Shown here one piece after another: positions 164 through 31,689 of a DNA stretch of 64,000 bases. Every line of letters starts with the position of its first letter. Within the stretch, counting starts at the first letter, position 1. Source of the DNA: Alphaproteobacteria bacterium (lineage in GTDB: Bacteria; Pseudomonadota; Alphaproteobacteria; Ferrovibrionales; Ferrovibrionaceae); assembly GCA_017307375.1 (NCBI GenBank), contig JAFKFH010000004.1:682001-746000 (forward strand), given 5' to 3'. A program made the translations under genes and the position numbers. Under the pieces are notes generated by a model. That model worked only from the letters and a program-made list of their open reading frames with translations, was not told the DNA's origin and did no database searches.

Positions 164-541
164 TCAGCCGATCAGGCTGACATGGGCGGCGACCACGCGC
201 CAGCCATCGGGTGTGCGCATCCATGTCTGGCTCTGCCGGCCGGTCTTCGGGCTGCCGTCGCGCTGAAACTCGGTATTCGCGGTCGCGAAATCGCGGCCGT
301 AGGTGGTGATGACCGTATTCCAGATCCGGCGGGCCAGTCCCGCCGGCGAACGGCCGGCGCGGAAGGCCGCGATCTCGGCATAGCCGTAGAGATTCTCGCC
401 CACGCCATAGCGCAGCGTGCGCGTATCGTTCCAGAACAACTCGTCGAGTACGGCGACGTCGTTCTCGACCAGCGCCTTTTCGTAGCGGGCGAAGGCCGCC
501 TCGACCTCGGCCTTGACCTCGGGGATATCGATCTCAGGCAT
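164..541 (-). CDS. atzH: AtzH-like (HpxZ/DUF3225) protein, 1,3-dicarboxyurea-type amidohydrolase candidate
   Basis: This is a 125-residue SnoaL/NTF2-like protein of the AtzH/HpxZ family (DUF3225), a usual length for that family. It opens with an acidic helix ([20 protein letters not shown]), followed by the conserved [11 protein letters not shown] and [14 protein letters not shown] segments and a C-terminal [19 protein letters not shown]. Start 541 was chosen over an ATG at 556 because GGAG lies about 7 bases upstream. It overlaps the end of atzE by 8 bp. AtzH of Pseudomonas sp. ADP is reported as a decarboxylating amidohydrolase that converts 1,3-dicarboxyurea to allophanate. Placement directly behind atzG-atzE and in the same run as atzF supports that role. 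HpxZ relatives occur in oxalurate pathways, so oxalurate-type ureides remain an alternative. Confidence 0.85.
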
Positions 542-1919
542 GGGCGATCTCCGCAACCGGGGCGGCGCAGATGCCGCGGGTTTCGAGTTCGGCGGCGACG
601 CGCAGCGCCCGGTCCTCGGCCCACGGCGCGGCGATGACCTGGACCCCGACGGGCAGGCCGCCGGCGGACTTCAGCGGCACCGCCACCACCGGCAGCCCGA
701 TGAACGAGATCGGCTGGGTGAAGATGCCCAGCGAAGCGCGCACCGGCACCGTCTGGCCGTCGATCACCATCGTCTGCTGGTCGACGGCCGGAGCCGCGCA
801 GGGCGTCGCCGGCGCCAGGATGATGTCGACCGCCGTGAACAGCTTGGCCACTTCGGCCTGGTACCAGCGCCGGAAGCGCTGGGCCTGCACATACCAAGTG
901 GCCGGCGCCAGCGCATTGGCGAGGAAGCGATCGCGGGTTTCCGGGTCGAAATCGCCCGGCCGCGCCTTCAGCCGCGCCAAATGGAGGTTTGCCCCTTCGG
1001 CGGCGGTGATGACGAACGCGGCTGCCCGCGCGCGCGCGGCTTCCGGAATTTCGATCCGGGTCGTCGCCCCCAGCGCCGCGGCGACACGCGACACCGCGCC
1101 GAGCGCATCGGCATCGGCGCCGCGCGTGAAGTAGCCGTCGGCCACGGCGATGCGCAAGCCTTCGGCACCACGCGCAAGCAGACCGGAAACCGGTTCCGCC
1201 GGCCGTACCGTGCAGACCGGATCGTCGGCGTCCGGTCCCTGCATCGCGTCGTAGGCGGCGGCGAGATCGGCTGAGGACCGGGCGATCGGCCCGAGATGGT
1301 CGAGGCTGCCGACGAACATGAAGCTGCCGGCGCGGGTCAGCCGGCCGTAGGTCGGCTTCAGCCCGAAGCAGCCGCACAGCGCCGACGGCACCCGGATCGA
1401 GCCGTTGGTGTCCGACCCCAGCGCCAGCGGCACCATCCCCGCCGCCACCGCCGCGCCCGACCCGGACGACGACCCCCCGGTCATCCGCGAGGGATCGTGC
1501 GGGTTGCGGCAATGGCCGTAATGGGCGTTCCGGCCGCTGAAGTCATAGGCATACTCGCCCATCGCCAACGTGCCGACCAGCACGGCACCGGCCGCCTCCA
1601 GCCGGCGCACCAGCGCGCCGTCGCGGCCAGCCGGGGGCAGGTCACGATTGATCTTCGAGCCGGCCAGGGTCGGCAACCCGGCGACGTCGATAAGGTTCTT
1701 GACGGCAAAGGGCACGCCGGCCAGCGGGCCCACATCCTGGCCGGCGGCAATGGCGGCATCCAGGCGGTCGGCGCGGGCACGGGCGCGATCGGCCAGCGTG
1801 TCGACCACGGCATTGACGACCGGGTTGACCTCGGCGATCCGGCGCAGGGCATTCTCGGTGACGCTGCGGGCGCTGACCTCGCCGCGGCGGACGGCGCGGG
1901 CAATGGTGGTCGCCTTCAT
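534..1919 (-). CDS. atzE: AtzE-type amidase, 1-carboxybiuret hydrolase large subunit
   Basis: This 461-residue amidase-signature enzyme has the Ser-cisSer-Lys triad visible as K74 ([11 protein letters not shown]), S150 (GGSSSGSG) and S174 ([10 protein letters not shown]). The 24-residue spacing of the two serines is normal for the family. AtzE with its small partner AtzG deaminates 1-carboxybiuret to 1,3-dicarboxyurea in the cytoplasm during cyanuric acid breakdown. The start at 1919 gives an ATGA overlap with the stop of atzG. An in-frame opening further upstream runs through atzG and is not used. Related GatA-like amidases could act on other ureides such as oxalurate, but the atzG-E-H order plus atzF in the same transcript favours the carboxybiuret reaction. 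Confidence 0.9.
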
Positions 1920-2095
1920 GCCGTGAACACCGGGGCGGCTTCGACGTCGTCGGGCATCGGGAATTCGGCGACTTGGCGCGCAACGGCGGCCAGGCGCTCC
2001 AGATTCTCGATTACGCCGGGGCGGCAGGCTTCGTCGATTTCGAGGCCGACCAGGCTTGCGGCCTGGTCGAGATAGGTTGACGCATCGAACGCCAT
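1916..2095 (-). CDS. atzG: AtzG-like (DUF4089) small subunit of the AtzE amidase
   Basis: This is a 59-residue GatC-like protein with the pattern DQAASLVGLEID followed by PGVIENLERLAAVARQVAEFPMPDD, typical of the AtzG/DUF4089 family that wraps around and stabilises AtzE. The start at 2095 has GAGGAG about 10 bases upstream; an ATG at 2113 would overlap the upstream ATPase gene and has no better site. Its stop overlaps the atzE start as ATGA, indicating translational coupling, which suits a two-subunit complex made in fixed ratio. Small size makes it easy to miss. Confidence 0.85.
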   Translation of the reverse strand: MAFDASTYLDQAASLVGLEIDEACRPGVIENLERLAAVARQVAEFPMPDDVEAAPVFTA

Positions 2096-2109
2096 GGGTC
2101 GTCTTCTCC

Positions 2110-3075
2110 TCACGCGAAATGGCAGGCGGCGAGATGGCCCGGCCCGACCGGCGACAGGCGGGGCATCGAATCGGCACAGGCCGGCCTGCCGTCCGGGCAG
2201 CGGCCGAAAAAGCGGCAGACCTTCGGGTCGGGGTTGATCGGGCTGCGCGGTTCGCCGCCCAGCCGCGGCCGTGGCCCCGGCGGTTCGAGCGTCAGTTCCG
2301 GCACGGCCGACAACAGGGCACGGGTGTAGGGATGGGCCGGCCGGCCAAGCACCTCGGCGGTAGGCCCCTGTTCGACGATCTTGCCGAGATACATCACAAT
2401 CACCCGATCGCAGATCAGCCGCACCACATTGATATCGTGGCTGACGAACAGATAGGACAGGCCGAGCCGCTGGCGCAGGTCCATCAGCAGCTTGAGGATC
2501 ACGACCTGGACCGACACGTCAAGCGCCGCGGTCGGTTCGTCGAGGATCAGCAGGCGCGGTTCGACCGCGATCGCCCGCGCGATGCCGACCCGCGCCTTCT
2601 GCCCGCCCGAAAGCTGGTGGGGGAAGCGACCGAGCAGCGCGCGCGGAATGCCCGTGGCATCGGCCAGTTCCTCGACCCGCTGCTGCAAGGCGGTGCCGCG
2701 CAGGCCCCGCAGCCGGCGCAGCGGTGCTGCAATCGCCTCGAACGCGGTATAGCGCGGATTGATCGATTCACCGGCATCCTGGAAGACCATCTGGATCGCC
2801 GCACGCTCGGGCCGGCGGGCGAAGCCGCGTGCCTTCATCCCCGCCAGGTCGGTATCGCCGAAATGGATCGCGCCGGCGGTCGGGTCGTGCAGCCGGGCCA
2901 GCAGACGCACCAGGGTCGACTTGCCGCAGCCTGACTCGCCGACCAGGCCGACGGTTTCGCCCGGCGCGATCGAGAAGCTGACGTCGTCGACGGCGTGGAG
3001 CTGGCCGCGGGCCTTGCCGCCGCCGCCGACGGGGTAGATTTTCTGCAGGTTGATGACGTCAAGCAGCGCGGTCAT
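2110..3075 (-). CDS. Dipeptide/oligopeptide-type ABC importer ATPase (DppF/OppF-like)
   Basis: This 321-residue ATPase has Walker [10 protein letters not shown] (about 46-54), Q-loop MVFQD, signature LSGGQ followed by KARVGIARA, Walker B LLILDEPTAALD and the H-loop SHD. A Cys-containing oligopeptide-ABC C-terminal segment (CRFFGRC) is present. It energises uptake together with the DppD-like ATPase, overlapping it by an ATGA junction. Position directly ahead of atzG suggests the cargo is a ureide or amide feeding AtzEGH/AtzF rather than a peptide. This family often carries non-peptide cargo. Confidence 0.92.
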   Translation of the reverse strand: MTALLDVINLQKIYPVGGGGKARGQLHAVDDVSFSIAPGETVGLVGESGCGKSTLVRLLARLHDPTAGAIHFGDTDLAGMKARGFARRPERAAIQMVFQDAGESINPRYTAFEAIAAPLRRLRGLRGTALQQRVEELADATGIPRALLGRFPHQLSGGQKARVGIARAIAVEPRLLILDEPTAALDVSVQVVILKLLMDLRQRLGLSYLFVSHDINVVRLICDRVIVMYLGKIVEQGPTAEVLGRPAHPYTRALLSAVPELTLEPPGPRPRLGGEPRSPINPDPKVCRFFGRCPDGRPACADSMPRLSPVGPGHLAACHFA

Positions 3076-4034
3076 AGCGGATTCCAGCAGGCAGCATCAT
3101 GCAGGGGGCCGGGCGGGATCGGCGGCAGGCTGCCGGCGCAGTCGTCGCGTCGCCGGTCGCACCGGCCGGCAAACCGGCAGACGCCGGCGGCCGCGCGGCG
3201 CAGGTCGGGCAACTCGCCGGGGATGGCCGCCAGGTCGCCGAGGGCAATGCCCGGGCGCGGCGTCGCGGCCAGCAGCCGCGCCGTGTAGGGATGGCGGGGG
3301 GCTGCCAGCAACTCGGCGACCGGGCCGCTCTCGACCACGTGGCCGGCATGCATGACGACGACCCGATCGCAATATTCCGAGGCCAGCGCCAGGTCGTGGG
3401 TGATCAGCAGCGTCGCCATCTGGCGCTCGCGCGCCAGGTCGCGCACCAGGTCCATCGCGACGGCCTGGGTCGTCACGTCGAGGCCGGTGGTCGGTTCGTC
3501 GGCGATCAGCAGCGACGGTGCGCAGGCCAGCGCGATGGCGATCATCACCCGCTGGCACATGCCGCCCGACAGTTCGAACGGATAGGCGCGCGACCGCCGC
3601 GCCGGATCGGGGATGCCGACCTGGGCCAGCAGCCGCACCGCCTCGGCCGGCGCGTCGGCCCGGCGGATATTGCCGTGCCGCAACAGCACGTCGGCAATCT
3701 GGGTGCCGATGCGGCGGATCGGATTGAGCGCGGCCCGCGGGTTCTGGAAGATCATCGACATCTCGCGGCCGCGCAGATCCTCGATCTCGCGTTCGCTCGC
3801 CTCGGTCAGGTCGATGCCGTCGAAGACGATGCGGCCGCCGGTCACCTGCCCGGCCGGGTCCAGGATGCCCATGGCGGCATAGGCGGTCACCGACTTGCCC
3901 GAGCCGGATTCGCCGACCAGCGCGACGGTCTCGCCGCGAGCGATGCTGAACGAGACGGTTTCCAGCGCCCGGACGATGCCGCCGCGGGTACGGAAAGCCA
4001 CCGACAGGTTCTCGACGCGTAGCAGTTCGCTCAT
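3072..4034 (-). CDS. Dipeptide/oligopeptide-type ABC importer ATPase (DppD/OppD-like)
   Basis: This 320-residue ATPase has Walker A GESGSGKSV, Q-loop MIFQNPRAALNPI, a signature LSGGM followed by CQRVMIAIALA, and Walker [15 protein letters not shown]. The oligopeptide C-terminal extension includes CRFAGRC. The variant LSGGM signature is usual for DppD proteins. Its start lies 4 bp after the stop of the DppC-like permease, and its stop overlaps the next ATPase start. It forms the second nucleotide-binding subunit of the five-gene importer at 2110-7513. Confidence 0.92.
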   Translation of the reverse strand: MSELLRVENLSVAFRTRGGIVRALETVSFSIARGETVALVGESGSGKSVTAYAAMGILDPAGQVTGGRIVFDGIDLTEASEREIEDLRGREMSMIFQNPRAALNPIRRIGTQIADVLLRHGNIRRADAPAEAVRLLAQVGIPDPARRSRAYPFELSGGMCQRVMIAIALACAPSLLIADEPTTGLDVTTQAVAMDLVRDLARERQMATLLITHDLALASEYCDRVVVMHAGHVVESGPVAELLAAPRHPYTARLLAATPRPGIALGDLAAIPGELPDLRRAAAGVCRFAGRCDRRRDDCAGSLPPIPPGPLHDAACWNPL

Positions 4035-4038
4035 CCGA

Positions 4039-4884
4039 TCAGCTCCGCCGCCGGGGGTCGACGATGTCGCGCAAGGCGTCGCCGAGCAGGTTGAAGCAGA
4101 ACACGGCCAGCATCAGGACGAGGCCCGGGAACAAGGCGACCCACCATTCGCCCGAAATCATCAGCCCCGCGCCTTCGGCGACCATGATCCCCCATTCCGG
4201 GGTCGGGGGCCTTACCCCCAGGCCGATGAACGAGAGCCCGGCGGCATTCAGGATCGCATAGCCCATGGTCAGAGAGGCCTGCACCATCATGATCGGCAGG
4301 ATGTTGGGCAGCAACTGGCCGAACAGGATCGCCGTCTCGCCGTCGCCCGACAGCCGCGCTGCCTCGATGAACCCGGCAGATTTGCGCTGGGCGGTTTCGG
4401 CCCGGGCGACGCGGACGTACAGCGGGAAGTTGATGATCGCGGTCGCCAGCACGATGTTGGTCACCGTATTGCCCAGCGCGGCGACGATGCCCATCGCCAG
4501 CACGAACAGCGGGAAGGCCATGATCGTGTCGACCAGCCGGCCGATCGCCTGGTCGGTCGCGCCGCCCAGGAATCCGGCGGCCAGCCCCGCCAGCGTGCCG
4601 AAGGCAAAGGCCAGGATGACCGACGAGACCGCGATCGCCATGTCGAGCCGGGTGGCGACCAGGACGCGCGAGAAGATGTCGCGCCCCAGCGCATCGGTTC
4701 CGAACCAGTGGCGCAGCGACGGTGGTTGCAGCGCGCGGGCGGCATCGGAGGCAAAGGGGTCATAGGGCGCCAGCGAGGGCCCCAGCAGCGCCGCCAGCAC
4801 GAAGAAGACGAACAGCCCGGCGGCGCCCAGCGTGACCGGATTTTCGGTCAGCACGTGGCGGACATGGCGCAGCGTCTCGTTCAT
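4039..4884 (-). CDS. Dipeptide-type ABC importer permease (DppC/OppC-like)
   Basis: This 281-residue inner-membrane permease has an N-terminal membrane helix (about 19-40, LGAAGLFVFFVLAALLG). The OppC-type segment HWFGTDALGRDIFSRVLVATR follows, and then a five-helix core with the EAA-loop motif EAARLSGDGETAILFGQLLPN. The C-terminus is the typical RDIVDPRRRS. The start overlaps the stop of the DppB-like gene as ATGA. Together they form the translocation channel of the importer encoded with atzG-E-H. Confidence 0.92.
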   Translation of the reverse strand: MNETLRHVRHVLTENPVTLGAAGLFVFFVLAALLGPSLAPYDPFASDAARALQPPSLRHWFGTDALGRDIFSRVLVATRLDMAIAVSSVILAFAFGTLAGLAAGFLGGATDQAIGRLVDTIMAFPLFVLAMGIVAALGNTVTNIVLATAIINFPLYVRVARAETAQRKSAGFIEAARLSGDGETAILFGQLLPNILPIMMVQASLTMGYAILNAAGLSFIGLGVRPPTPEWGIMVAEGAGLMISGEWWVALFPGLVLMLAVFCFNLLGDALRDIVDPRRRS

Positions 4885-5894
4885 GCCGCCGGCTCCAGCC
4901 GCGGATCGATGATGCCGTAGAGCAGGTCGATCGACAGGTTCAGCACGACGTAGAGCAGCGCCATGGTCAGCACGAAACCCTGGATCGGGGCATAGTCGGC
5001 CGCGATCAGCGCCTCGATCGCGTAGGAGCCGATGCCCGGCCAGGCAAACACCTTCTCGACCAGGACATTGGCGCCCAGCAGGAACGAGAACACCATGCCG
5101 AGGGTGGTGACGACCGGCAGCATCGCGTTCCTGAAGGCGTAGGCGAAGACGACGGTGCCACCCGACAGGCCGCTGGCCCGCGCCGTGCGGATGAAGTCGG
5201 CCGACAGCACTGCGAGCATCGAGGCCCGCGTCATCCGCGCCAGCGGCGCCAGGGTGAAGATCGCCAGCGTCGCCGCCGGCAGGACGAGTTGTCCTGCGGC
5301 GGCGACGAAGGTTTCGGCATCGCCGGCCAGCAGGCTGTCGACGAGATAGAGGCCGGTGCGGTCGGGCGGGCTGGAGAAGAACGCATCGAGCCGCCCGAGC
5401 GGCGCCGGCGACCAGCCGAGCAGGAAATAGAAGACGTAGACCAGTACCAGCCCGGTGAAGAACGTCGGCATCGAGACGCCGAGGGTGACGATCACCCGGC
5501 AGAGGTGATCGACCCAGGAATTGGGCCGGGTCGCGGCGAGAATGCCGAGCGGCAGCGCAATCGCCAGGCTGATGACGAGGCCGAGCAAGGTAAGCTCGAG
5601 CGACGCCGGCAGCCGGCTGGCCAGTTCGACCAGCACCGGCCGGCCGGTCGAAAGCGACTGCCCGAGGTCGCCGCGCAGCAGATCGCCGACATAGCGGACG
5701 AACTGCTCCGGCAGGCTGCGATCGAGGCCGAGCGCCGTGCGGATCTCGGCGATCGCCTTGGCATCGGCGTTGGGGCCGGCGAAATAGGCGGCGGGGTCGC
5801 CGGGCAGGGCCCGGGTCAGCACGAAGGTCACCACGACCACGCCGATCACGCTGGGAATGGCGGCGGCGAGCCTTCGTCCGATCAGGGTCAGCAT
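4881..5894 (-). CDS. Dipeptide-type ABC importer permease (DppB/OppB-like)
   Basis: This 337-residue permease opens with the family hallmark of one helix followed by FVLTRALPGDPAAYFAG. It has multiple membrane segments and the EAA-loop segment DFIRTARASGLSGGTVVFAYAFRN. The end, LLYGIIDPRLEPA, is typical of DppB proteins. It lies 17 bp after the binding-protein gene and is coupled by ATGA to the DppC partner. Nothing in the sequence fixes the cargo. Confidence 0.92.
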   Translation of the reverse strand: MLTLIGRRLAAAIPSVIGVVVVTFVLTRALPGDPAAYFAGPNADAKAIAEIRTALGLDRSLPEQFVRYVGDLLRGDLGQSLSTGRPVLVELASRLPASLELTLLGLVISLAIALPLGILAATRPNSWVDHLCRVIVTLGVSMPTFFTGLVLVYVFYFLLGWSPAPLGRLDAFFSSPPDRTGLYLVDSLLAGDAETFVAAAGQLVLPAATLAIFTLAPLARMTRASMLAVLSADFIRTARASGLSGGTVVFAYAFRNAMLPVVTTLGMVFSFLLGANVLVEKVFAWPGIGSYAIEALIAADYAPIQGFVLTMALLYVVLNLSIDLLYGIIDPRLEPAA

Positions 5895-5911
5895 CGGCGG
5901 CCCCTCCCCGT

Positions 5912-7513
5912 TCAGTTCTTCACCAGCTGGCGGAAATCGAGCTGGCGATGGAACCAGTACTTGTAGCCGGTGATGTTCTTCTGGAAGCCGACGTCCATGA
6001 ACTGCTGATAGAGCGGGACGCGCGGCACTTCCGTCATCGCCATCTGGATGAAGCCCTTCACCGCGCCCTCGTACTTCGCCGTGTCGTCCTCGTAGCGGGC
6101 GGCGTCGATGAACTTGTCCATCGCCGGGTTCTGGTAGCCCATGGTGTTGAAGGTTCCGTTCTGGCTGTGATAGCCCCAGTAGAACCAGTAGTCGGGGAAG
6201 TTGAGCCAGCCGCCGAACGACGCGATGTGGATCGGCAGGTCCTTCTTGGCCAGCGCGCCGCGCCAGTTGGCACCCGGCACCTTGTTGATCGTCGTCTTGA
6301 CCCCTGCCTGGGCCAGCGATTCCTGCAGCAGCACCGCAGCCGGTTCCGAGACGGTGGCATCGCCCAGGTCGATCGATATCGTCGATTCGAAGCCGTTGGG
6401 GAACCCGGCCTCGGCGAGCAGCGCCCGCGCCTTGGCGATATCGGTCTTATAGGGGAAAGGCTGTGGCCAGGCAGCCGTCTTCGGCTCGCCGCTCGGTGCG
6501 CCGAACATCGGCACCCCGCGACCGTAGACGGCGGTCTTCATGATCGCCTCGTAGGGAATCGCATAGGCCAGGGCCTGACGGACCTTGACGTTGTCGAACG
6601 GCGCCTGCTTGACCGCGAAGCCGACATAGAGCAGCGAGTTCTCGACCGGGACGCCGACGATCCGATACTTGCCCGAGGCGGAAATCTCGGCGGCGTCCTT
6701 GGGCGGCAGGTCGATCGAGATGTCGGCGTCGCCTTTTTCCATCAAGGCGCGGCGGTTGCCGGCCGACGGGACTTCGCGCAGGATCACGCGCTTCATCGCC
6801 GGCAGCGGCCCGTTCTTCCATTCGTCGAACCGGGTGTAGACGGTCTCCTGCCCCGGCGTCCATTTCTCCAGCTTGAAGGCGCCGCCCGCGGCGACGTTGT
6901 TCTTCAGCCAGTCGAGCGCCCAGGGATCGGCCGCGGTCGCATGCTTCTTGGCGAGTTCCGAGTTGTAGATCGCCGCGACCGGCACGGCCATGTCGGGCAG
7001 AGTCAGCTTGTCCTTGAGCAGGAACTTGACCTTGAACGTGTAGTCGTCGATCACCTCGAACTGCTCGGGCTTGGTCAGCGACCCCGCGCTCATCTGGAAC
7101 GTCGGGAAGCCGCCGACCGACACCGCCCGGTCGAACGACCACTTCACATCCTTGGCCGTGACGGGACTGCCGTCGTGGAACGTCGTGCCCCGGCGCAGGT
7201 AGAAAGTGACCGACATGCCGTCCGGCGCGAACTCGTAGCGCTCGGCCAGTTCGCCGACGATCTTGGTGTAGTCGTAGGACAGCGTGCCGTCGGCAAGCGT
7301 CTTGGTCCCGAACGACACCAGCCGGTCATGCGTGTTCCACGACGCGACATAGGAACGAAAGCTGGTGCCGACGCCCTGGATATCCAGGTTGTTCGGACCG
7401 CTCTCCACCAGCACCAGCAAGGTATCCTTGCGCCCCTGCGCCGCGGCGGGCATGGCGGTTGCCACCCCAGCCGCCAGCATCGCCGCCGCCACCCACTTGC
7501 CCCCAGCCTGCAT
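5912..7513 (-). CDS. Periplasmic substrate-binding protein, SBP_bac_5 (dipeptide/nickel type)
   Basis: This 533-residue protein has a Sec signal (about 1-26, hydrophobic core then AAAQG) and a family 5 solute-binding fold. Recognisable segments are YEFAPDGMSVTFYLRRGTTF and KDVKWSFDRAVS near the N-terminal domain, and VRQALAYAIPYEAIM in the middle. It delivers cargo to the DppBCDF-like importer downstream. The start has a strong AAGGAGG about 6 bases upstream. The 169-bp gap before it carries a TTGTATGCAA motif, so this gene may have its own GntR-controlled promoter inside the longer run from atzF. Confidence 0.92.
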   Translation of the reverse strand: MQAGGKWVAAAMLAAGVATAMPAAAQGRKDTLLVLVESGPNNLDIQGVGTSFRSYVASWNTHDRLVSFGTKTLADGTLSYDYTKIVGELAERYEFAPDGMSVTFYLRRGTTFHDGSPVTAKDVKWSFDRAVSVGGFPTFQMSAGSLTKPEQFEVIDDYTFKVKFLLKDKLTLPDMAVPVAAIYNSELAKKHATAADPWALDWLKNNVAAGGAFKLEKWTPGQETVYTRFDEWKNGPLPAMKRVILREVPSAGNRRALMEKGDADISIDLPPKDAAEISASGKYRIVGVPVENSLLYVGFAVKQAPFDNVKVRQALAYAIPYEAIMKTAVYGRGVPMFGAPSGEPKTAAWPQPFPYKTDIAKARALLAEAGFPNGFESTISIDLGDATVSEPAAVLLQESLAQAGVKTTINKVPGANWRGALAKKDLPIHIASFGGWLNFPDYWFYWGYHSQNGTFNTMGYQNPAMDKFIDAARYEDDTAKYEGAVKGFIQMAMTEVPRVPLYQQFMDVGFQKNITGYKYWFHRQLDFRQLVKN

Positions 7514-7622
7514 TGTCGCCTCCTTGGCATGACCCCTGTCGGTAAATGGCTACGCAAGGGGCATGCCAACTTGCTGCGATGCGGCAAGTCTTTGAAAAAA
7601 GAAGGTTATTTTTCATGTTACG

Positions 7623-7632
7623 TTGTATGCAA
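7623..7632. promoter_or_regulatory. Candidate GntR operator, TTGTATGCAA
   Basis: The sequence is a near-palindrome, TTG and CAA arms around TATG, extended to GTTG-TATG-CAAC at 7622-7633. It lies 110 bp upstream of the binding-protein start in a short AT-rich stretch. The same 10-mer recurs at 7694 and, with one change, at 10266. Short TTG-type palindromes are plausible operators for FCD-type GntR regulators, and one is encoded next to it. The assignment is inference. Confidence 0.5.
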
Positions 7633-7682
7633 CAATACTGAATGGATGAGAATCAAGTCATCGATGATAAAATTTTAGGCAG

Positions 7683-8360: not shown

Positions 8361-8372
8361 GGCGGCCGGACT

Positions 8373-10160: not shown

Positions 10161-10260
10161 GTCGGTACTCCTTCAGTCGACGATTTTACCCTGACCATTG
10201 CAGGTTTGGTGCCATCACACGGTGGCAGGCGGCAGGCCGCGTCTGCTCAGTCCCCGGGCG

Positions 10261-10275
10261 ATGTATTGCATACAT
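10261..10275. promoter_or_regulatory. Candidate GntR operator in the divergent atzF / BMP-importer promoter region
   Basis: ATGTAT-TGC-ATACAT forms a perfect 6-bp inverted repeat. Read on the minus strand it contains ATGTATGCAA, one base different from the TTGTATGCAA copies at 7623 and 7694. It sits 100 bp upstream of atzF and 147 bp upstream of the BMP binding protein, so one bound regulator could control both arms. The rest of the 261-bp gap holds AT-rich stretches but no gene. Confidence 0.55.
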
Positions 10276-10421
10276 TGCGCACCATATCGCCTATTTTTTC
10301 ATCAAATCTGGTATTCGAACGATGCCCGGTGGCTGGATTTCGGCGGTTCGGCGTCTGGCATCGAACCTGCATCGTCATGCTGCAGCCGCGAAAGGCTCAC
10401 GTCCAGACGAGGGGAGATGCC

Positions 10422-11540
10422 ATGACCAACTTCACCACGCCGTCCCGCCGGTCCCTGTTGCGCGGCGCTGCCGCCGGCGGCCTGCTTGCCGCCACCGGCC
10501 TGCCGATCGGCCGCGCCTTCGCCGCCGACCTCGTCGTCGGCTTCATCTATGTCGGGCCGCGCGACGACTACGGCTACAACCAGGCCCAGGCCGAGGGCGC
10601 CGCGGCGCTGAAGAAGCTGGCGGGCGTCAAGGTCGTCGAAGAGGAGAAAGTGCCGGAGACCATCGCCGTCGAGAAGACGATGGAGAGCATGATCAACCTC
10701 GACGGCGCCAAGCTGCTGTTCCCAACCTCGTTCGGCTACTACAACCCGCATATGCTGAAGCTGGCGAAGAAGTATCCCGCCGTGCGCTTCGAACATTGCG
10801 GCGGCCTGTGGACCGAGGGCGCGCCCAAGAACGCGGGCAGCTATTTCGGCTACATCGACGAAGCCCAGTATCTCGCCGGCATCGTCGCCGGCCATACCTC
10901 GAAGACCGGCAAGCTCGGCTTCATCGCCGCCAAGCCGATCCCGCAGGTCCTGCGCAACATCAATGCCTTCACCCTGGGCGCGCGGTCGGTCAATCCGAAC
11001 GCGACGACGCAGGTGATCTTCACCGGCGACTGGTCGCTGCCGGTCAAGGAAGCCGAGGCGTCGAACAGCCTGATCGACCAGGGCGTCGACGTCCTCACCT
11101 GCCACGTCGACAGCCCGAAGGTGGTGATGGAGACGGCCGAGCGCCGCGGCGTCTTCTGCTCGGGCTACCACGTCAACCAGGCGCCGCTGGCGCCCAAGGG
11201 ATACCTCACCGGCGCCGAATGGGCCTGGTCGGGACTGTTCACGTCGATGGTCGACGCGGTCAAGACCGGCAAGCCGATCCCGAACCTCGTCCGCGGCGGC
11301 CTGAAGGAAGGCCTGGTCAAGACCTCCGCCTACGGTCCTGCGGTGGGCGAGGCGGCGCGCAAGCAGGCCGACGCGGTCAAGGCGCGTTTCCTCGATTCCG
11401 GCTTCGTCATCTTCAAGGGCCCGCTGAAGGACAACAAGGGCGCGGTGGTCATCCCGGCCGGCCAGGAGCAGGGCCAGACCGACCTGCGGCTGGAAAGCAT
11501 GAACTACCTGGTCGAAGGCGTCCTGGGCGCCCTGGCCTGA
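10422..11540 (+). CDS. BMP-family (PnrA-like) ABC importer substrate-binding protein, Tat-exported
   Basis: This 372-residue protein has a twin-arginine signal (SRRSLLRGAAAGG, about 7-33) and a basic-membrane-protein domain with FIYVGPRDDYGYNQAQAEGA near its start. BMP proteins bind nucleosides and other small heterocycles or ureides for CUT2-like importers. GGGGAG precedes the ATG; the longer upstream frame lacks such support. Two permeases and a double-domain ATPase follow, interleaved with amidohydrolases. The cargo is therefore likely a nitrogen-rich amide or ureide, not a classical nucleoside. Confidence 0.92.
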   Translation: MTNFTTPSRRSLLRGAAAGGLLAATGLPIGRAFAADLVVGFIYVGPRDDYGYNQAQAEGAAALKKLAGVKVVEEEKVPETIAVEKTMESMINLDGAKLLFPTSFGYYNPHMLKLAKKYPAVRFEHCGGLWTEGAPKNAGSYFGYIDEAQYLAGIVAGHTSKTGKLGFIAAKPIPQVLRNINAFTLGARSVNPNATTQVIFTGDWSLPVKEAEASNSLIDQGVDVLTCHVDSPKVVMETAERRGVFCSGYHVNQAPLAPKGYLTGAEWAWSGLFTSMVDAVKTGKPIPNLVRGGLKEGLVKTSAYGPAVGEAARKQADAVKARFLDSGFVIFKGPLKDNKGAVVIPAGQEQGQTDLRLESMNYLVEGVLGALA

Positions 11541-11566
11541 CGTCTCGGGCGATCGCCCTTGGACTG

Positions 11567-11600
11567 GACCGTCACGCCGGCATTTGCCGGGGTGACGGTC
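11567..11600. repeat. Intergenic inverted repeat (REP-like hairpin)
   Basis: GACCGTCAC at 11567-11575 pairs with GTGACGGTC at 11592-11600. The inner arms GCCGGCA and TGCCGGG extend the stem to about 16 bp with one mismatch and a 2-base loop. It sits between the binding-protein gene and the first permease. Such hairpins often stabilise the upstream mRNA and damp downstream expression, giving excess binding protein. No second copy was noticed in the window. Confidence 0.7.
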
Positions 11601-11663
11601 GGCCGGCAGGCGATCGGTCGGAACTGCGATGCGACAGCAGCGGGGCAACAAGGAGATGACAGC

Positions 11664-12737
11664 ATGACCCGATCCGACGGTTGGGCGGCGACGATCGACG
11701 CGGTGGCGATCCCCGTGCTTGCCATCGTCGTTGCCCTGGTCCTGTTCGGCGCCTTCGTCGCCATTTATGGCGTCGACCCGTTCGCCGCGTACGGCCTGAT
11801 GTTCGAAGGTGCCTTCGGATCGGCTTTCTCCTGGCAGAACTCGCTGCTGCGCTCGGCGCCGCTTATCCTTACCGCGCTGTGCACGGCCCTGCCCGCCCGT
11901 GCCGGCCTCGTCGTCATCGGCGCCGAGGGGGCGCTGGCGCTGGGTGGCCTTGCGGCCGCCGCGGTCGGCCATGCCCTCGACGGTGCGAACGGCATGGTCA
12001 CCGTGACGGTCATGGCAGTGGCGGCCGCTGTGATCGGCGGGGCCTGGGTCGCGCTGGCCGGCGCACTGCGCTACTGGCGCGGGGTCAACGAAACCATCGC
12101 CAGCCTGCTGCTCGTCTACATCGCGATCGCCCTGTTCAATCATCTGGTCGAAGGCCCGCTGCGCGATCCGGCGTCGCTGAACAAACCGTCGACGCCGCCG
12201 ATCGCCGACGACGCAATGATCGGCGCGATCCCCGGCTTCGACGTGCATTGGGGCCTCGTCACCGGCGTCCTGCTGTGCCTTGCCTTCTGGGTGCTGATCG
12301 AGCGGACCACGATCGGCTTTGCCATCCGGCTGATCGGCGACAACCAGAAGGCGGCGCGGCTGGCCGGGCTGCGTCTCGGCGGCTACGTGCTCGTCGTCTG
12401 CGCGCTGGGCGGCGCGGCGGCGGGCCTCGCCGGTCTCTACGAGGTCGCGGCGGTCCACGGCCAGGCCAATGCCTCGCTGCTGGTCGGGTACGGGTTCACC
12501 GGCATCCTGGTGTCGTTCCTGGCCCGGCATAATCCGCTGGCGATCATTCCGGTCGCGATCCTGATCGGCGGCATCGGCGCCTCGGGCGGGCTGCTGCAAC
12601 GCCGCCTCGATCTGCCCGATGCCGCGGTGCTGGTGCTGCAGGGCATCCTGTTCGTCACCATTCTCGCCAGCGAAACGATGTACGGCCGCATCCGCTGGCG
12701 CCTGCCCAGCCTGGTCGCGGCAAGGAGGCCGGCATGA
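11664..12737 (+). CDS. BMP-type ABC importer permease 1 (CUT2-like, BPD_transp_2)
   Basis: This 357-residue membrane protein has about eight to nine hydrophobic segments of the BPD_transp_2 fold. It contains PLILTALCTALPARAGLVVIGAEGAL, the hallmark region of nucleoside-type permeases, and the loop IRLIGDNQKAARLAGL. AGGAG at 11651-11655 is spaced 8 bases from ATG 11664; an in-frame ATG at 11559 lies inside the hairpin repeat and is rejected. The stop overlaps the second permease start. It forms half of the channel for the BMP protein's cargo. Confidence 0.9.
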   Translation: MTRSDGWAATIDAVAIPVLAIVVALVLFGAFVAIYGVDPFAAYGLMFEGAFGSAFSWQNSLLRSAPLILTALCTALPARAGLVVIGAEGALALGGLAAAAVGHALDGANGMVTVTVMAVAAAVIGGAWVALAGALRYWRGVNETIASLLLVYIAIALFNHLVEGPLRDPASLNKPSTPPIADDAMIGAIPGFDVHWGLVTGVLLCLAFWVLIERTTIGFAIRLIGDNQKAARLAGLRLGGYVLVVCALGGAAAGLAGLYEVAAVHGQANASLLVGYGFTGILVSFLARHNPLAIIPVAILIGGIGASGGLLQRRLDLPDAAVLVLQGILFVTILASETMYGRIRWRLPSLVAARRPA

Positions 12738-13666
12738 GCAACGCTGCCGAGGCCCTGGGCTGGTGGGGCGTACCGCTCGCCGTCATCGGCGGCGCCATCC
12801 GCGTCTCGACCCCGTTTCTCTTCGTCTCGCTCGGCGAATGCCTGACCGAACGGGCAGGTCGGATCAATCTCGGCCTCGAAGGCACGCTGATCATGGGGGC
12901 GATGAGCGGCTATGCCACCGCCCTGCATACCGGCTCGCCCTGGGCCGGGGTGCTGGTCGCCGGTCTTGCCGGCCTGCTGTTCGGCCTGCTGCACGGGGCG
13001 ATCTGCTCGCTGCCGCGGGTCAACGACATCGCCGTCGGCATCGGGCTGATGCTGCTCGGCACCGGCCTCGCCTTCTTCCTGGGCAAGCCCTACATCCAGC
13101 CGAAGGCACCCGGCCTGCCGGCGATCGACCTGGGCTGGTGGAGCAGCCTGCCGCAGGTGCAGGCGGCGCTGAAGATCAACGTGCTGTTCGTGATCGGCGT
13201 GATCTGCGCCCCGGTCATGCTGTGGTGGCTGAAGAATGCCCGGCTGGGCCTCGTCGTCCGCACGGTCGGCGACAGCGCCGATGCCGCCCGCGCCCTCGGC
13301 TTCCCGGTCATCGCCACACGTATCTGGGCGACGGCCGCCGGCGGGTTCCTGGCCGGCGTCGGCGGGGCGTTCCTGTCGCTCTACTATCCCGGCAGCTGGT
13401 CGGAGGGGCTGTCGAGCGGCCAGGGCATCACCGCCGTCGCCCTGGTGATCTTCGCGCGCTGGAACCCGATGGGCTGCTTCTATGCCTCGCTGCTGTTCGG
13501 CGGGGCGGGGGCGCTTGGCCCGGCACTGCAGTCGGTCGGGGTGACGCAGGGCTACTACCTGTTCAACGCCCTGCCCTATGCGCTGACCCTGGCCGTGATG
13601 ATCATCGCCTGCTCGCCCCGCCGCACGCTGGCCGGCGCGCCCGGCGAGCTCGGCGTCACCAACTGA
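12734..13666 (+). CDS. BMP-type ABC importer permease 2 (CUT2-like, BPD_transp_2)
   Basis: This 310-residue permease is overwhelmingly hydrophobic, with ECLTERAGRINLGLEGTLIMGA, the standard motif of the second permease in BMP systems, and the cytoplasmic loop VVRTVGDSADAARALGF. It starts inside the last codons of permease 1 (ATGA overlap) and ends 10 bp before the formamidase-like gene. It pairs with permease 1 in the inner membrane. Confidence 0.9.
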   Translation: MSNAAEALGWWGVPLAVIGGAIRVSTPFLFVSLGECLTERAGRINLGLEGTLIMGAMSGYATALHTGSPWAGVLVAGLAGLLFGLLHGAICSLPRVNDIAVGIGLMLLGTGLAFFLGKPYIQPKAPGLPAIDLGWWSSLPQVQAALKINVLFVIGVICAPVMLWWLKNARLGLVVRTVGDSADAARALGFPVIATRIWATAAGGFLAGVGGAFLSLYYPGSWSEGLSSGQGITAVALVIFARWNPMGCFYASLLFGGAGALGPALQSVGVTQGYYLFNALPYALTLAVMIIACSPRRTLAGAPGELGVTN

Positions 13667-13676
13667 GGAGACGGAG

Positions 13677-14684
13677 ATGAGCGGCCTGGGCGGTCTCAAC
13701 AAGTCACCCCACGGCGTCGTGATCGGGCTGGTGCAGCTGCAACTGCCGCTGGTCGTGACACCTGACGACCTGGCGCGTCAGACCGCGCGGATCTGCGCGC
13801 TGGTCGCCAAGGCGCGGCGCGCCTCGGCGACGATGGATCTGGTGGTCTTTCCCGAATACGCGCTGCACGGCCTGACGATGGACACCAACCCGGCGATCAT
13901 GTGCCGGGTCGACGGGCCGGAGGTCGCGGCCTTCCGCGCCGCCTGCGCCGAGCACCGGATCTGGGGCTGCTTCTCGATCATGGAGCTGAACGAGGGCGGC
14001 AATCCCTACAACAGCGGCCTGATCATCGATGCCGAGGGCGAGATCCGCCTCTATTACCGCAAGCTGCATCCCTGGGTGCCGGTCGAACCCTGGGAACCCG
14101 GCGATATCGGCATCCCCGTCTGCGACGGACCCAACGGTTCCAGGCTGGCGCTGATCATCTGCCACGACGGCATGTTCCCCGAGATGGCGCGCGAATGCGC
14201 CTACAAGGGGGCCGAGATCATGCTGCGCACCGCCGGCTATACCGCGCCGATCCGCCACGCCTGGACCGTCACGAACCAGGCCAACGCCTTCTGCAACCTG
14301 ATGGCGACAGCCAGCGTCTGCCTCGCCGGCAGCGACGGCACGTTCAATTCGATGGGCGAGGCGATGATCTGCAATTTCGACGGCACGATCATGGTGCAGG
14401 GCAACGGCCTCGCCGACGAGATCGTCACCGCCGAGATCCGCCCGGACCTGGTGCGCGAGGCACGGCGCCTGTGGGGCGTCGAGAACAACATCTACCAGTT
14501 CGGCCATCGCGGTTATGTCGCCGTCAAGGGCGGCGCGGGCGACTGCCCCTACACCTACATGCATGACCTGGCGGCCGGCCACTACCGCCTGCCCTGGGAG
14601 GACGAGGTCGCCGTGACCGACGGCACCTCCTGCGGCTTTGCCGCACCGGAACGGCTCTATCGTGGAGGACGCGACCAGCAATGA
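13677..14684 (+). CDS. amiF: Formamidase-like nitrilase-superfamily amidohydrolase (AmiF type)
   Basis: This 335-residue C-N hydrolase is collinear with AmiF formamidases. The catalytic triad is visible as E60 ([10 protein letters not shown]), K129 ([14 protein letters not shown]) and C162 ([10 protein letters not shown]). Family-specific stretches such as NAFCNLM, FNFDGT-like [11 protein letters not shown] and the C-terminal [19 protein letters not shown] are conserved. AmiF hydrolyses formamide to formate and ammonia in the cytoplasm. Its place inside a ureide importer operon suggests either that formamide arises in the pathway or that it accepts another very small amide. GAGG precedes the start. 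Confidence 0.88.
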
Positions 14685-15361
14685 GCAGAACCGTCGCCGC
14701 CGATCCTTACGCCTGGCCCTACGACGGGCGCCTCGATCCCGCCATCACCGCGCTGATCGTCATCGACATGCAGACCGATTTCTGCGGCCCGGGCGGGTAT
14801 GTCGACCGCATGGGCTACGACATCGGCCTGACCCGCGCGCCGATCCAGCCGATCGCCGACGTGCTGGAAACGTTGCGGCCGCGCGGCTTCACCATCCTGC
14901 ATACGCGCGAAGGCCATCGGCCCGACCTGGCCGACCTGCCGGACAACAAGCGCTGGCGGTCGCGGCAGATCGGCGCCGGCATCGGCGACGACGGCCCCTG
15001 CGGCCGCATCCTGGTACGCGGCGAGCCGGGCTGGGAGATCATTCCCGAACTGGCGCCCCGGCCAGGCGAGGCGATCATCGACAAGCCGGGCAAGGGCAGC
15101 TTCTATGCCACCGACCTCGACCTGCTGCTGCAGCGCGCCGGTATCCGCAACATCATCCTGACCGGCATCACCACCGATGTCTGCGTCCACACGACGATGC
15201 GCGAGGCCAACGACCGCGGCTACGAATGCCTGCTGCTGTCCGATTGCTGCGCCGCGACCGATCGCGGCAATCACGAGGCGGCGTTGAAGATGATCAAGAT
15301 GCAGGGTGGCGTGTTCGGGGCGGTGGCCAGCTCGGCCCAGTTGATCGAGGCCGTGTCGTGA
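14681..15361 (+). CDS. biuH: Biuret hydrolase-like isochorismatase-family cysteine hydrolase
   Basis: This 226-residue cysteine hydrolase has triad residues D29 ([11 protein letters not shown]), K135 ([13 protein letters not shown]) and C168 ([17 protein letters not shown]). These match the D/K/C layout of characterised BiuH with a uniform shift of seven residues. The segment [18 protein letters not shown] and the ending [16 protein letters not shown] are also BiuH-like. BiuH converts biuret to allophanate and ammonia, which AtzF would consume. The ATG overlaps the formamidase stop. Ureidoacrylate hydrolase RutB is a related alternative, but no rut genes are present. Confidence 0.88.
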
Positions 15362-16890
15362 CCGGCGCGCTGGGTATCGAAGCGGTCGCGATGACCAAGC
15401 GGTTCGGCGATTTCGTCGCCCTCGACGACGTCACCATCCGCGTCCGCCCCGGTTCCTTCCACGCCCTGCTGGGTGAGAACGGTGCCGGCAAATCGACGCT
15501 GGTCAAATGCATCATGGGCTATTACCGCCCGGAGGAAGGGCAGGTCATCGTCGGCGACCGCGAGCGCGAAATCGCCAATCCGCGCCAGGCGCACGGCCTC
15601 GGGATCGGCATGGTCTACCAGCATTTCACGCTGGTCCCGAACATGACCGTCGCCGAGAATCTGGTGCTGGCCCAGCCCGACCTGCCGGCGGTGATCGACT
15701 GGCGCAAGGAGCGGCCGCGGCTCGAAGCCTTCCTCGCGCAGATGCCGTTCAAGGTGCCGCTCGACCGCGTCGCCTCGAGCCTGGCGGCCGGCGAGAAGCA
15801 GAAGGTCGAGATCCTGAAGCAGCTCTATCTCGATCGCCGCTTCCTGATCCTGGACGAGCCGACCTCGGTGCTGACGCCGGCCGAAGCCGACGAGGTCCTG
15901 GGCCTGCTGCAGCGGATGACGCGTGCCGGCCGGCTGACCATCCTGATGATCACGCACAAGTTCCGCGAGGTCATGGCCTTTGCCGACGAAGTCAGTGTCC
16001 TGCGCCGCGGCAAGCTGGTCGGCGGCGGGCTGGTCACCGAGCTCGATACCGACCGGATGGCCGCGATGATGGTCGGCGAGGCCGCGCTGCCCCAGCCGAA
16101 ATCGCGCAACGAGCAGCCCGCTGGTGCCGTGCGCCTGCGCATCGACAGCATCTCGGCTCTCGATGATGGCGGCCAGCCGGCCGTGCGCGGGCTGTCGCTC
16201 GAGGTGCGGGCCGGCGAAATCCTTGGCATCGCCGGCGTCTCCGGCAACGGCCAGCGCGAACTGGTCGAGGTGCTGGCCGGCCAGCGGCCGGCAACCGGCG
16301 GCAAGATCCTGGTCGACGGCCAGCCCTTCCACGCCCGCCGCGACCAGATCCGGCGGCATCGCATCGCCCTGCTGCCGGAAGAGCCGCTGCGCAACGCCTG
16401 CGCCCCGAACCTCACCGTCGCCGAGAACATGGGGTTGCGCCGCTTCGACATCGCGCCCTACGCGCGCGGGCCGTGGCTGAAGCCGTCGGCCTTCCGCGAG
16501 GCCGCGACCGGCCTGATCAGCCGCTACCGGGTCAAGACGCCCTCGCCGCTCGCCCCGATCAAGGCGCTGTCGGGCGGCAACATCCAGCGCGCCGTGCTCG
16601 CCCGCGAACTGGGCGAACCGCCGTCGCTGCTGATCGTCGCCAATCCGGTCTTCGGCCTCGACTTCCAGGCGGTGGCCGAAATCCACAACCAGATCATCGA
16701 GGCGCGCAACCTCGGCGCCGCGGTGCTGCTGATTTCGGAAGACCTCGACGAACTGTTCGAACTCGCCGACCGTATCGCGGTCATGTTCGCCGGCCGCATC
16801 GTGCACGAAACCGCGGTCGCGGGAACCCGGCCGACCGAGATCGGCCGGCATATGGCCGGCCATGGCGAGGATGCCCATGAAGCAGCTTGA
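15358..16890 (+). CDS. BMP-type ABC importer ATPase with two nucleotide-binding domains
   Basis: This 510-residue ATPase is of the RbsA/nucleoside type. Domain 1 has Walker [10 protein letters not shown], a degenerate signature [12 protein letters not shown] and Walker [14 protein letters not shown]. Domain 2 has [10 protein letters not shown] in place of Walker A, signature [14 protein letters not shown] and a degenerate Walker [13 protein letters not shown], with N where the Asp-Glu pair usually starts. Such asymmetry is normal in BMP systems. The start is GTG at 15358, overlapping the biuH stop as GTGA; a later ATG at 15391 would cut off the first strand. Confidence 0.92.
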
Positions 16891-17545
16891 AGCCGCCCTG
16901 CCCTACCCGTTCCGCTTCGATCCCGAGCGCACCGCCCTGGTCGTCATCGACATGCAGCGCGACTTCATCGAACCGGGCGGTTTCGGCTCGACGCTCGGCA
17001 ACGACGTGACCCTGCTGCAGGCGATCGTGCCGACGACGCGGCGGTTGCTCGACGGCTGCCGCGCCGCCGGGATGACGATCATCCACACCAAGGAGGCGCA
17101 CAAGCCCGACCTGTCGGACTGCCCCGAAGCCAAGCGCCAGCGCGGCAGGCCGGGCCTCAGGATCGGCGATCCCGGGCCGATGGGCCGCATCCTGATCGCC
17201 GGCGAGCCGGGCAACGACTTCGTGCCGCAACTGGCCGCCTTGCCGGGAGAAATCGTGATCGAGAAGCCCGGCAAGGGCGCCTTCTACGCCACCGAGCTGC
17301 AGGCGATCCTGCGCGCCCGCCATATCGGACAGCTGGTCTTCGCCGGGGTCACGACCGAAGTCTGCGTGCAGACCTCGATGCGCGAAGCCAATGATCGCGG
17401 CTATGACTGCCTGCTGATCGAGGATGCGACGGAAAGCTATTTCCCGCAGTACAAGGCCGCCGCGCTCGACATGATCCGCGCCCAGGGCGCGATCGTCGGC
17501 TGGACGGCAACCTGCGACGACTTCCTGGCCGTATTGCCGGACTGA
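16877..17545 (+). CDS. Second isochorismatase-family cysteine hydrolase
   Basis: This is a 222-residue paralogue of the biuret-hydrolase-like gene. Triad residues are D25 ([10 protein letters not shown]), K130 ([13 protein letters not shown]) and C163 ([17 protein letters not shown]). It differs around the substrate pocket, for example [17 protein letters not shown] and [15 protein letters not shown], so a different amide substrate is likely. ATG 16877 has AGGA nearby; ATGs at 16862 and 16871 are possible. It overlaps the ATPase gene. It probably hydrolyses another ureide or carbamoyl amide delivered by the same importer. Confidence 0.88.
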
Positions 17546-31416: not shown

Positions 31417-31689
31417 TCAGAGCCGGCAGGCCAGCGCCGCGGCCGTGGCCGAGCCGGGCGTCACCGGCACGATCTCGAAGGCGACGAGGTCGGACCATTC
31501 GGCGACCCAGCGCTGCAGCAACGTCGGGTCGTCACAGTCCATGACCTGGAAACACCGGCCGAGATCGGCCGATGTCCAGCTCGACACATAGGTCAGGCCT
31601 TCCGGCGCCAGGCGGCCCTGGTCGCGGAAGCGGCGATAGACCGCCTTGGCATCCTGGTTGCGGAATGTCTCGATCACCATGAACAGCAT
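31417..31689 (-). CDS. DUF3303-like small protein
   Basis: This 90-residue ferredoxin-like-fold protein has the pattern MLFMVIETFRNQDAKAVYRRFRDQGR, then EGLTYVSSWTSADLGRCFQVM and WVAEWSDLVAFEIVPV, as in the DUF3303 family. Function is unknown; many members act as small stress-type or monooxygenase-like proteins. It is the first small gene after the second dipeptide-type importer, 18 bp downstream, so may share its transcript. Confidence 0.8.
   Translation of the reverse strand: MLFMVIETFRNQDAKAVYRRFRDQGRLAPEGLTYVSSWTSADLGRCFQVMDCDDPTLLQRWVAEWSDLVAFEIVPVTPGSATAAALACRL

Follow-up and report, generated by a model that had tools for sequence, protein, structure and literature searches.

Why would the atzG-atzE-atzH cassette, best known from herbicide breakdown, share a divergent locus with genes for the hydrolysis of triuret and biuret, two oligomers of urea? 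The question is raised by a 64,000 nt stretch (the window; positions 682001–746000 of contig C38) of a 7.54 Mb alphaproteobacterial genome (Ferrovibrionaceae), in which a two-armed locus extends from atzH to trtA (positions 164–17545). All named genes are open there in the order given by a preliminary description of the sequence, and their family matches lie above the cut-offs (Table 1). We consider it likely that the two arms form a joint pathway for the nitrogen-regulated uptake and mineralisation of triuret and biuret, in which AtzG-E-H would convert carboxybiuret to allophanate and both arms would drain into AtzF. The cassette would thereby gain a candidate everyday job, one that can be tested.

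In the proposed pathway, the BMP importer of the right arm would take up triuret and biuret. TrtA, which like BiuH is identified by sequence, would split triuret into carboxybiuret and NH3, a chemistry published for Herbaspirillum TrtA; the product, carboxybiuret, has a half-life of ~20 min (PMC7948467). AtzE with AtzG would deaminate carboxybiuret to 1,3-dicarboxyurea, and AtzH would decarboxylate the latter to allophanate, so that enzymes, and not a slow spontaneous decarboxylation, would drain carboxybiuret. Biuret, whether imported or arising by decarboxylation, would be converted to allophanate by BiuH, and the allophanate of both arms would be split by the single AtzF, yielding NH3 and CO2. 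Formamide, which may stem from formylurea, on which TrtA acts weakly as a side reaction, would be removed by the formamidase, and the dipeptide-type importer of the left arm would bring in some further ureide, or triuret itself. The units atzF-gntR, substrate-binding protein (SBP)-opp-atzGEH and the BMP arm start at sigma-54-type promoters, through which nitrogen shortage would induce both arms together; control by substrate would probably come on top, exerted by the GntR protein at TTGCATACA-type sites.

A Predicted Triuret and Biuret Operon in the Right Arm

The preliminary description had placed BiuH-like hydrolases and a second cysteine hydrolase in the right arm. The biuH assignment stands, its product being nearest to a solved BiuH (6azo, E 2e-114), but the second cysteine hydrolase is nearest to a solved TrtA (6xix, E 3e-91), no BiuH structure doing better than 4e-65. 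PMC7948467 lists active-site residues together with positions at which TrtA differs from BiuH. At the 14 discriminating positions the window TrtA carries DFFNEKKATECYQI, the full TrtA set (14/14), and its neighbour carries DFYYEKKSTDCTQV, the BiuH set; these exact strings occur in 103 and 79, respectively, of 187 aligned rows, which include the window rows and some overlapping loci. The two residue sets therefore point to a locus for triuret and biuret. A second BiuH was considered for the trtA product and rejected, as it scores 261 bits against a cut-off of 370, has a TrtA structure as its nearest match and has the TrtA residues complete.

Judged by its predicted products, the right arm is of the known triuret/biuret operon kind, with an optional formamidase added. 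The triuret operon of Rhizobium sp. BT03 (L091) has a GntR gene and bmp-permease-permease-biuH-ATPase-trtA in the same order as the window, the formamidase aside, but ends with a small cupin gene and has no atzGEH, no opp importer of the window type and no formamidase. AtzF is placed with TrtA and BiuH in published triuret operons of Rhizobium, Herbaspirillum and ammonia oxidisers (PMC7948467, PMC12625717), the last of which have trtA-biuH-trtB-atzF with a bmpA-nupABC importer (PMC12625717). Among 80 TrtA loci, which are the best-scoring 80 of 576 and lean towards TrtA proteins resembling that of the window, a close BMP gene is present in 62, BiuH in 68 and the formamidase in 27. Gene presence was counted within the available stretch, some stretches being short; a full-flank subset of 64 loci has at least 7 kb before and at least 3 kb after trtA.

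The closest solved relative of the window BMP protein is AtzT (6pi5, E 2e-65), which holds guanine between Tyr45 and Trp194 (PMC6834077). This aromatic sandwich is retained in a set of 75 BMP proteins (74 from loci and that of the window), with Tyr45 in 73 and Trp194 in all 75, while the base-reading residues are altered: Glu165 to Gln in 71/75, and Asn218 to His and Asn220 to Asp in 75/75. The ligand would thus be planar and other than guanine; biuret or triuret would fit.

Several TrtA-like proteins elsewhere depart from the usual setting. The protein of L276 (58% identical) has residues DYYLQKKATECYSL, unlike both the TrtA and BiuH sets, and perhaps acts on another substrate. In L259, L261, L262, L264–L267, L269 and L275, divergent TrtA-like proteins (53–60% identical) carry the full TrtA set, and neither BiuH nor a triuret-type BMP gene was found in their vicinity; in L260 and L268 paired TrtA copies lie ~2–4 kb apart beside one triuret operon. 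Within the window’s own family, TrtA stands beside a GatA-like amidase that is 34–36% identical to AtzE in L107, L109, L110, L112 and L153, the last with a distant BMP importer; these pairs are reminiscent of a gatA-like gene, as yet uncharacterised, that is reported to accompany biuH in archaea (PMC12625717).

The Left Arm and Its Single Allophanate Hydrolase

The left arm has atzG, atzE and atzH, in that order, and the AtzH residues equivalent to Tyr22 and Arg46 are present as Y20 and R44 (6bjt alignment, with the numbering mapped by residue spacing). AtzEG acts on carboxybiuret, giving 1,3-dicarboxyurea, and AtzH probably yields allophanate from this product, raising ammonia output only if an active AtzF is present (PMC6219798). 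The AH_C domain of the window AtzF is the only match to this domain found in the whole genome, and both arms therefore need the window AtzF. The preliminary picture of enzymes converging on allophanate, with two unrelated importers in divergent arms, is thus borne out, with a single AtzF serving both. Its general idea that nitrogen-rich amides are taken up and drained to CO2 and ammonia also holds, with the right-arm substrates now sharpened to triuret and biuret.

In the own-family sample (18 genomes, comprising the whole order and a single family), AtzF, SBP, OppB-C-D-F and AtzG-E(-H) form a separate module in ten regions (L139–L148). A close GntR gene is present in eight of the ten, atzH was not found in two (L143 and L146), and in just one of them (L140, genome G013) does TrtA lie near, ~9 kb from AtzE. 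The left arm had been described as one transcript, which is unlikely, as the gap between gntR and the SBP gene is 169 bases with a sigma-54-type promoter of its own, and atzF is on the opposite strand to the SBP-opp-atzGEH run in 10/10 of the family regions. A Roseomonas locus (L093) has the same left arm as the window (AtzF, SBP_bac_5, two permeases, ATPase(s), AtzG and AtzE, with GntR adjoining), but a TrtA/BiuH arm was not seen there. Clusters of atzF, an ATP-binding cassette (ABC) transporter and atzG-E-H are reported from beta-proteobacteria including Variovorax, flanked by more ABC transporters and amidases (PMC6219798); the Variovorax loci examined suggest that these flanking genes are triuret genes, which were not recognised as such until two years afterwards.

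Two further known settings of the cassette are also similar in part. On pADP-1 (L090), atzDGEHF is divergent from a BMP importer (atzRSTUVW), the combination of AtzG-E-H-F with such an importer being shared with the window, and AtzE is 53% identical to that of the window, but carboxybiuret arises there from cyanuric acid by AtzD, the regulator is of the LysR type, and the stretch has no TrtA or BiuH. Klebsiella hpxXYZ (L092) is the same AtzG-E-H cassette, annotated for oxalurate catabolism, in a stretch with no AtzF, TrtA or BiuH.

Association of AtzE with TrtA across Genomes

AtzE and TrtA occur together in more genomes than expected, both among 240 Alphaproteobacteria (AtzE in 16, TrtA in 19, both in 9 against 1.3 expected; Fisher 1.3e-7) and among 250 Burkholderiales (AtzE in 31, TrtA in 36, both in 21 against 4.5 expected; Fisher 6.8e-14), the Fisher values for co-occurrence being inflated by kinship. 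The excess persists among the 237 Alphaproteobacteria that remain when the own family is left out (AtzE in 13, TrtA in 16, both in 6 against 0.9 expected; Fisher 4.6e-5). The Burkholderiales were sampled around G268, a genome itself chosen from a TrtA locus, and the 249 others have AtzE in 31, TrtA in 35 and both in 21. Absence of TrtA or AtzE in these samples depends on the E-value limits and, in Burkholderiales, on assemblies that may be incomplete. One of the 19 alphaproteobacterial TrtA genomes, G223, is counted for a protein (that of L276) that departs from the TrtA residue set, and has no AtzE match.

The two genes are frequently adjacent as well. Outside the own family, five of the six alphaproteobacterial pairs lie within 8 kb, the sixth being split over two contigs. 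Among the 21 Burkholderiales pairs, 12 are at most 2.2 kb apart, one more (G509) is separated by 14.7 kb, and the other eight are on different contigs. In 8/12 of the close Burkholderiales pairs atzE follows trtA by 197–260 bases on the same strand, with room for atzG, and a gammaproteobacterial Thiogranum record (L088) reads trtA-atzG-atzE-atzH. Two further loci (L175 and L196) combine one opp importer with TrtA, AtzF and AtzE, and have no triuret-type BMP gene.

The whole two-armed order is found again in the Burkholderiales genome G509 (L258), with trtA, ATPase, biuH, amiF, permease, permease and bmp on one strand and atzF, SBP, oppB, oppC, oppD, oppF, atzG, atzE and atzH on the other (atzG being read from the translation); a GntR gene was not seen there. 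The arrangement recurs, and hence is not unique to the window. The preliminary description had regarded it as unlike anything described, a view that the comparison does not support: the right arm is a known triuret operon, the left arm has been described in beta-proteobacteria, pADP-1 is similar, and the order recurs in L258. Neither arm is new in kind. Among the 80 TrtA loci, opp/SBP genes flank ten, nine with a BMP gene and one without, all ten with a cupin gene.

Searches of the open-licence literature, supplementary figures excepted, gave no paper that puts atzGEH in triuret loci and none on the two-armed arrangement. PMC7948467 mentions AtzEG merely as an existing carboxybiuret enzyme, PMC6219798 records atzG-E-H in many genomes without a cyanurate gene and leaves its role open, and PMC12625717 leaves open the decarboxylase step in triuret loci that lack a decarboxylase. 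An AtzGE-TrtA association would settle the role of atzG-E-H at least partly, would offer one answer for the decarboxylase-less triuret loci, would explain the source of the parts of a herbicide-degrading operon, and bears on what becomes of triuret, which occurs in urea fertiliser as an impurity.

Alternative Routes at the Carboxybiuret Step

The 80 TrtA loci differ in what accompanies the hydrolases: 25 have a small cupin gene, 23 have atzE, nine have atzH without atzE, and 23 have none of these. A cupin gene together with atzE or atzH was found in 0/80. This split (Fisher 1.6e-7, 80 loci) needs just two changes on the TrtA tree, because of which the Fisher value is inflated by kinship; as proof that the cupin replaces AtzE or AtzH, the mutual exclusion was given little weight, being in the first place a lineage pattern. 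The known carboxybiuret decarboxylase is TrtB, with which the rhizobial cupin that follows trtA need not be identical; a close relative of this cupin was not found in the window genome (best match 30% over 67 residues, E 6e-4). Of the 23 loci with neither cupin nor atzE/atzH, 11 are long-flanked, and all 11 of those genomes have AtzE elsewhere, whereas AtzE was not found at 1e-90 in the four searched genomes of atzH-only loci (15/16 genomes of these two groups were searched, L038 being left out).

AtzE is missing from 15 of the 36 Burkholderiales genomes with TrtA, five of which have atzH near trtA (G268, which is the genome of L049, and those of L263, L270, L271 and L272). The other ten comprise eight with a divergent TrtA only (55–60%) and two (G292 and G422) that combine a close copy with a divergent one. 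The TrtA residue set is present in all 16 TrtA proteins of 14 Burkholderiales regions without AtzE.

AtzH-like genes near trtA, with no atzE in the stretch, were seen in L038, L040 and L083, in all three after trtA, and in L049, L051, L063, L069, L073, L078, L263, L270, L271 and L272. The equivalents of Tyr22 and Arg46 are kept in 13/13 of these proteins, which could be stand-alone carboxybiuret decarboxylases. An AtzD-like cyanuric acid hydrolase lies in or beside the triuret operon of L062 (at 7385; 52%) and of L271 (at ~11.4 kb; 62%), uniting both sources of carboxybiuret.

Relationships of the AtzE Cassettes

A first AtzE tree had 60 rows, with 12 rows from short duplicate loci (L159–L170) omitted, and a 65-row tree combined 35 of these 60 rows (near-copies and long branches having been thinned by hand) with 30 of the 31 Burkholderiales matches, two rows being duplicates. 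In the latter, the biochemically characterised AtzE of pADP-1 falls in an 8-row clade (bootstrap 100; SH-like approximate likelihood ratio test, SH-aLRT, 100), the other members being six TrtA-linked rows and a copy on a Pseudomonas putida plasmid, found beside a ring-opening amidohydrolase; in an inner 5-row clade (97/90) all four companions of pADP-1 AtzE are TrtA-linked. Five of the six TrtA-linked rows were fetched via TrtA, a route biased towards this outcome. The remaining one, from G318, came from the Burkholderiales AtzE search, in which it is the best match to pADP-1 AtzE (70%), and has TrtA 1.1 kb away. These relationships suggest that the cyanurate operon borrowed its AtzGEH cassette from triuret loci.

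A wider proposal, which we offer tentatively as plausible and a little short of probable, is that atzG-E-H outside triazine operons would largely be a deaminating exit for carboxybiuret. The pADP-1 cassette would then derive from a triuret locus, AtzH-type proteins beside trtA where AtzE is lacking would decarboxylate carboxybiuret on their own, and the window, with its two importers, would hold the fullest version.

Predicted Nitrogen Control of Both Arms

All three predicted units are preceded by a sigma-54-type site on the same strand (Table 1). A stricter first pattern gave 14 matches against 23 expected, of which three immediately precede the three units. A looser one, TGGCAYNNNNNYTGC, was chosen afterwards, which makes its window count post hoc (seven exact matches against 0.59 expected: three before atzF, the SBP gene and bmp, one inside biuH, and others at 31647, 52135 and 60690); relatives and unit-internal genes are the better test. 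In 300-base upstream stretches of relatives, TGGCAYNNNNNYTGC occurs before bmp in 28/81 (0.68 expected), before the SBP gene in 14/34 (0.50 expected) and before atzF in 20/58 (0.60 expected), against 2/91 for biuH, 2/121 for trtA, 0/80 for atzE and 0/32 for oppB, which are internal to the units. Both pADP-1 operons are sigma-54 dependent (PMC6834077), a likeness to the promoters predicted in the window. General nitrogen control thus probably extends to both arms.

The word TTGCATACA has three copies in 64 kb against 0.06 expected, all in the locus and one (7695) inside gntR, and its 8-base core lies upstream of bmp in 15/73 (0.36 expected) and of the SBP gene in 9/26 (0.38 expected), overlapping loci being kept; the word was picked after looking, and these statistics are post hoc. 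Sites of this type are candidate operators for the GntR protein. A sigma-70 scan of 7400–10500 gave one promoter-like site, on the plus strand in the gap (7646–7673), and a terminator scan of the same range found none.

Joint or Separate Pathways

A number of observations weigh against the joint pathway. AtzGEH is not required in triuret loci generally, given the loci with a cupin and neither atzE nor atzH (25/80) and the nine with atzH and no atzE, and 10/36 Burkholderiales TrtA genomes have no AtzE and neither atzH nor a cupin gene near TrtA. As to linkage in the own family, TrtA and AtzE are unlinked in the assemblies of nine of the 11 genomes that have both, being linked only in the window and in G013. 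The joint conservation of the arms, which the preliminary description had named as a check, is accordingly mixed: the order recurs in L258, but most of these family genomes lack the linkage, though contig ends may hide links. The left arm is found without TrtA in G008 (one of the 18 genomes of the order) and in five of ten opp-type arms among the 20 of 31 Burkholderiales AtzE regions that were read, and therefore can have a job apart from triuret. Alignment columns of AtzE fail to separate carboxybiuret from oxalurate substrates; one column splits 33 TrtA-linked from three HpxW-linked rows, and the window has neither letter. In the tree the window AtzE groups with opp-arm AtzEs, outside the pADP-1 clade. 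Much of this would fit two separate pathways with AtzF and nitrogen control in common: the right arm would deal with triuret and biuret, its carboxybiuret losing CO2 spontaneously, and AtzGEH would act on a ureide of its own, imported by the dipeptide-type importer. In the family the left arm forms a separate module that mostly lies apart from TrtA, it occurs without TrtA as just described, and it is equipped with an importer and a sigma-54-type promoter of its own; the specificity of AtzE is unreadable from its sequence. We nevertheless think this explanation unlikely, if a serious contender, in view of the co-occurrence and adjacency of AtzE and TrtA in two large samples and of L175 and L196, where one opp importer is joined to TrtA, AtzF and AtzE with no triuret-type BMP gene. 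We also know of no stable ureide from which AtzE and AtzH would produce allophanate, besides carboxybiuret, itself unstable, and this too counts against separate pathways.

The remaining explanations seem to us much weaker than either the joint pathway or two separate ones. That AtzGEH is HpxXYZ, acting on oxalurate, is improbable: AtzH passes the HpxZ cut-off (NF033625, 217 against 135 bits), the sister genes are hpxXYZ in Klebsiella, and the genome has nine Ggt-family stretches, one of them in the window (37836–39530, minus strand, 20 kb from the locus and the nearest on this contig), yet no Ggt (HpxW) family gene is among the locus genes, AtzG falls below the HpxX cut-off (27.4 against 70 bits), and an allophanate hydrolase, needless for oxalurate, is in the same arm. 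A Ggt gene beside an amidase gene on contig C37 was considered as part of another hpxWXYZ set and rejected, the amidase being only 34% identical to AtzE and an open reading frame (ORF), which we take to be RidA-like, lying between the two. A chance neighbourhood of two nitrogen modules with no functional link would agree with the unlinked arms of the nine family genomes, but is very hard to reconcile with a right arm that has no AtzF of its own (none other having been found in the genome), with the same order in the Burkholderiales locus L258, with opp genes flanking nine of the 80 TrtA loci, all nine having a BMP gene too, and with one promoter class on all three units. Least credible of all is a cyanuric acid pathway like that of pADP-1. 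AtzGEH and AtzF are present as in atzDGEHF, along with a BMP importer, but no AtzD is among the locus genes; none was found in the genome either, by a search that was silent in control genomes too and is therefore weak.

Layout and Surroundings of the Locus

The features of the locus, with the predicted promoters and candidate operators, are collected in Table 1.

Table 1. Genes and predicted regulatory sites of the two-armed locus (positions in the window)
Feature	Position	Strand	Basis
atzH (AtzH-like, NTF2 superfamily; predicted 1,3-dicarboxyurea decarboxylase)	164–541	-	NF033625, 217 bits (cut-off 135); PF11533; 6bjt, E 8e-51
atzE (predicted 1-carboxybiuret amidohydrolase)	534–1919	-	NF006631, 719 bits (cut-off 461); AtzE structure 6c62, E 2e-142
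atzG (small AtzE partner)	1916–2095	-	PF13318 AtzG-like, 75 bits (cut-off 24)
oppF-type ATPase, dipeptide-class importer	2110–3075	-	Family matches
oppD-type ATPase	3072–4034	-	Family matches
oppC-type permease	4039–4884	-	Family matches
oppB-type permease	4881–5894	-	Family matches
SBP_bac_5 substrate-binding protein	5912–7513	-	PF00496, 267 bits
Sigma-54-type promoter TGGCATGCCCCTTGC, starting 55 bases before the SBP gene	7554–7568	-	Pattern scan
Word TTGCATACA, candidate operator, in the gap before the SBP gene	7624–7632	-	Word count
GntR-FCD regulator, candidate for both arms	7683–8360	-	PF00392, PF07729
atzF (allophanate hydrolase; amidase and AH_C domains)	8373–10160	-	TIGR02713, 766 bits (cut-off 511); PF21986
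Sigma-54-type promoter TGGCACCAAACCTGC, starting 54 bases before atzF	10200–10214	-	Pattern scan
Perfect palindrome TGTATTGCATACA, candidate operator, divergent promoter	10262–10274	none	Sequence scan
Sigma-54-type promoter TGGCATCGAACCTGC, starting 66 bases before bmp	10356–10370	+	Pattern scan
BMP substrate-binding protein	10422–11540	+	Bmp PF02608; AtzT 6pi5, E 2e-65
BMP-importer permease 1	11664–12737	+	PF02653
BMP-importer permease 2	12734–13666	+	Family match
Formamidase (AmiF)	13677–14684	+	NF009803, 570 bits (cut-off 406); 5g3o, E 5e-110
biuH (biuret hydrolase)	14681–15361	+	NF050097, 419 bits (cut-off 370); 6azo, E 2e-114; BiuH residues
BMP-importer ATPase, GTG start proposed	15358–16890	+	Family match
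trtA (triuret hydrolase)	16871–17545	+	6xix, E 3e-91, against 6xjm, 4e-65; 14/14 TrtA residues

Past atzH, the genes look unrelated in translations read by eye, and the locus is thus taken to end at atzH. On the 3' side of trtA there is an ORF with a partial FAD_binding_9 match, followed by a RES/Xre type II toxin-antitoxin pair (18387–19297, minus strand).

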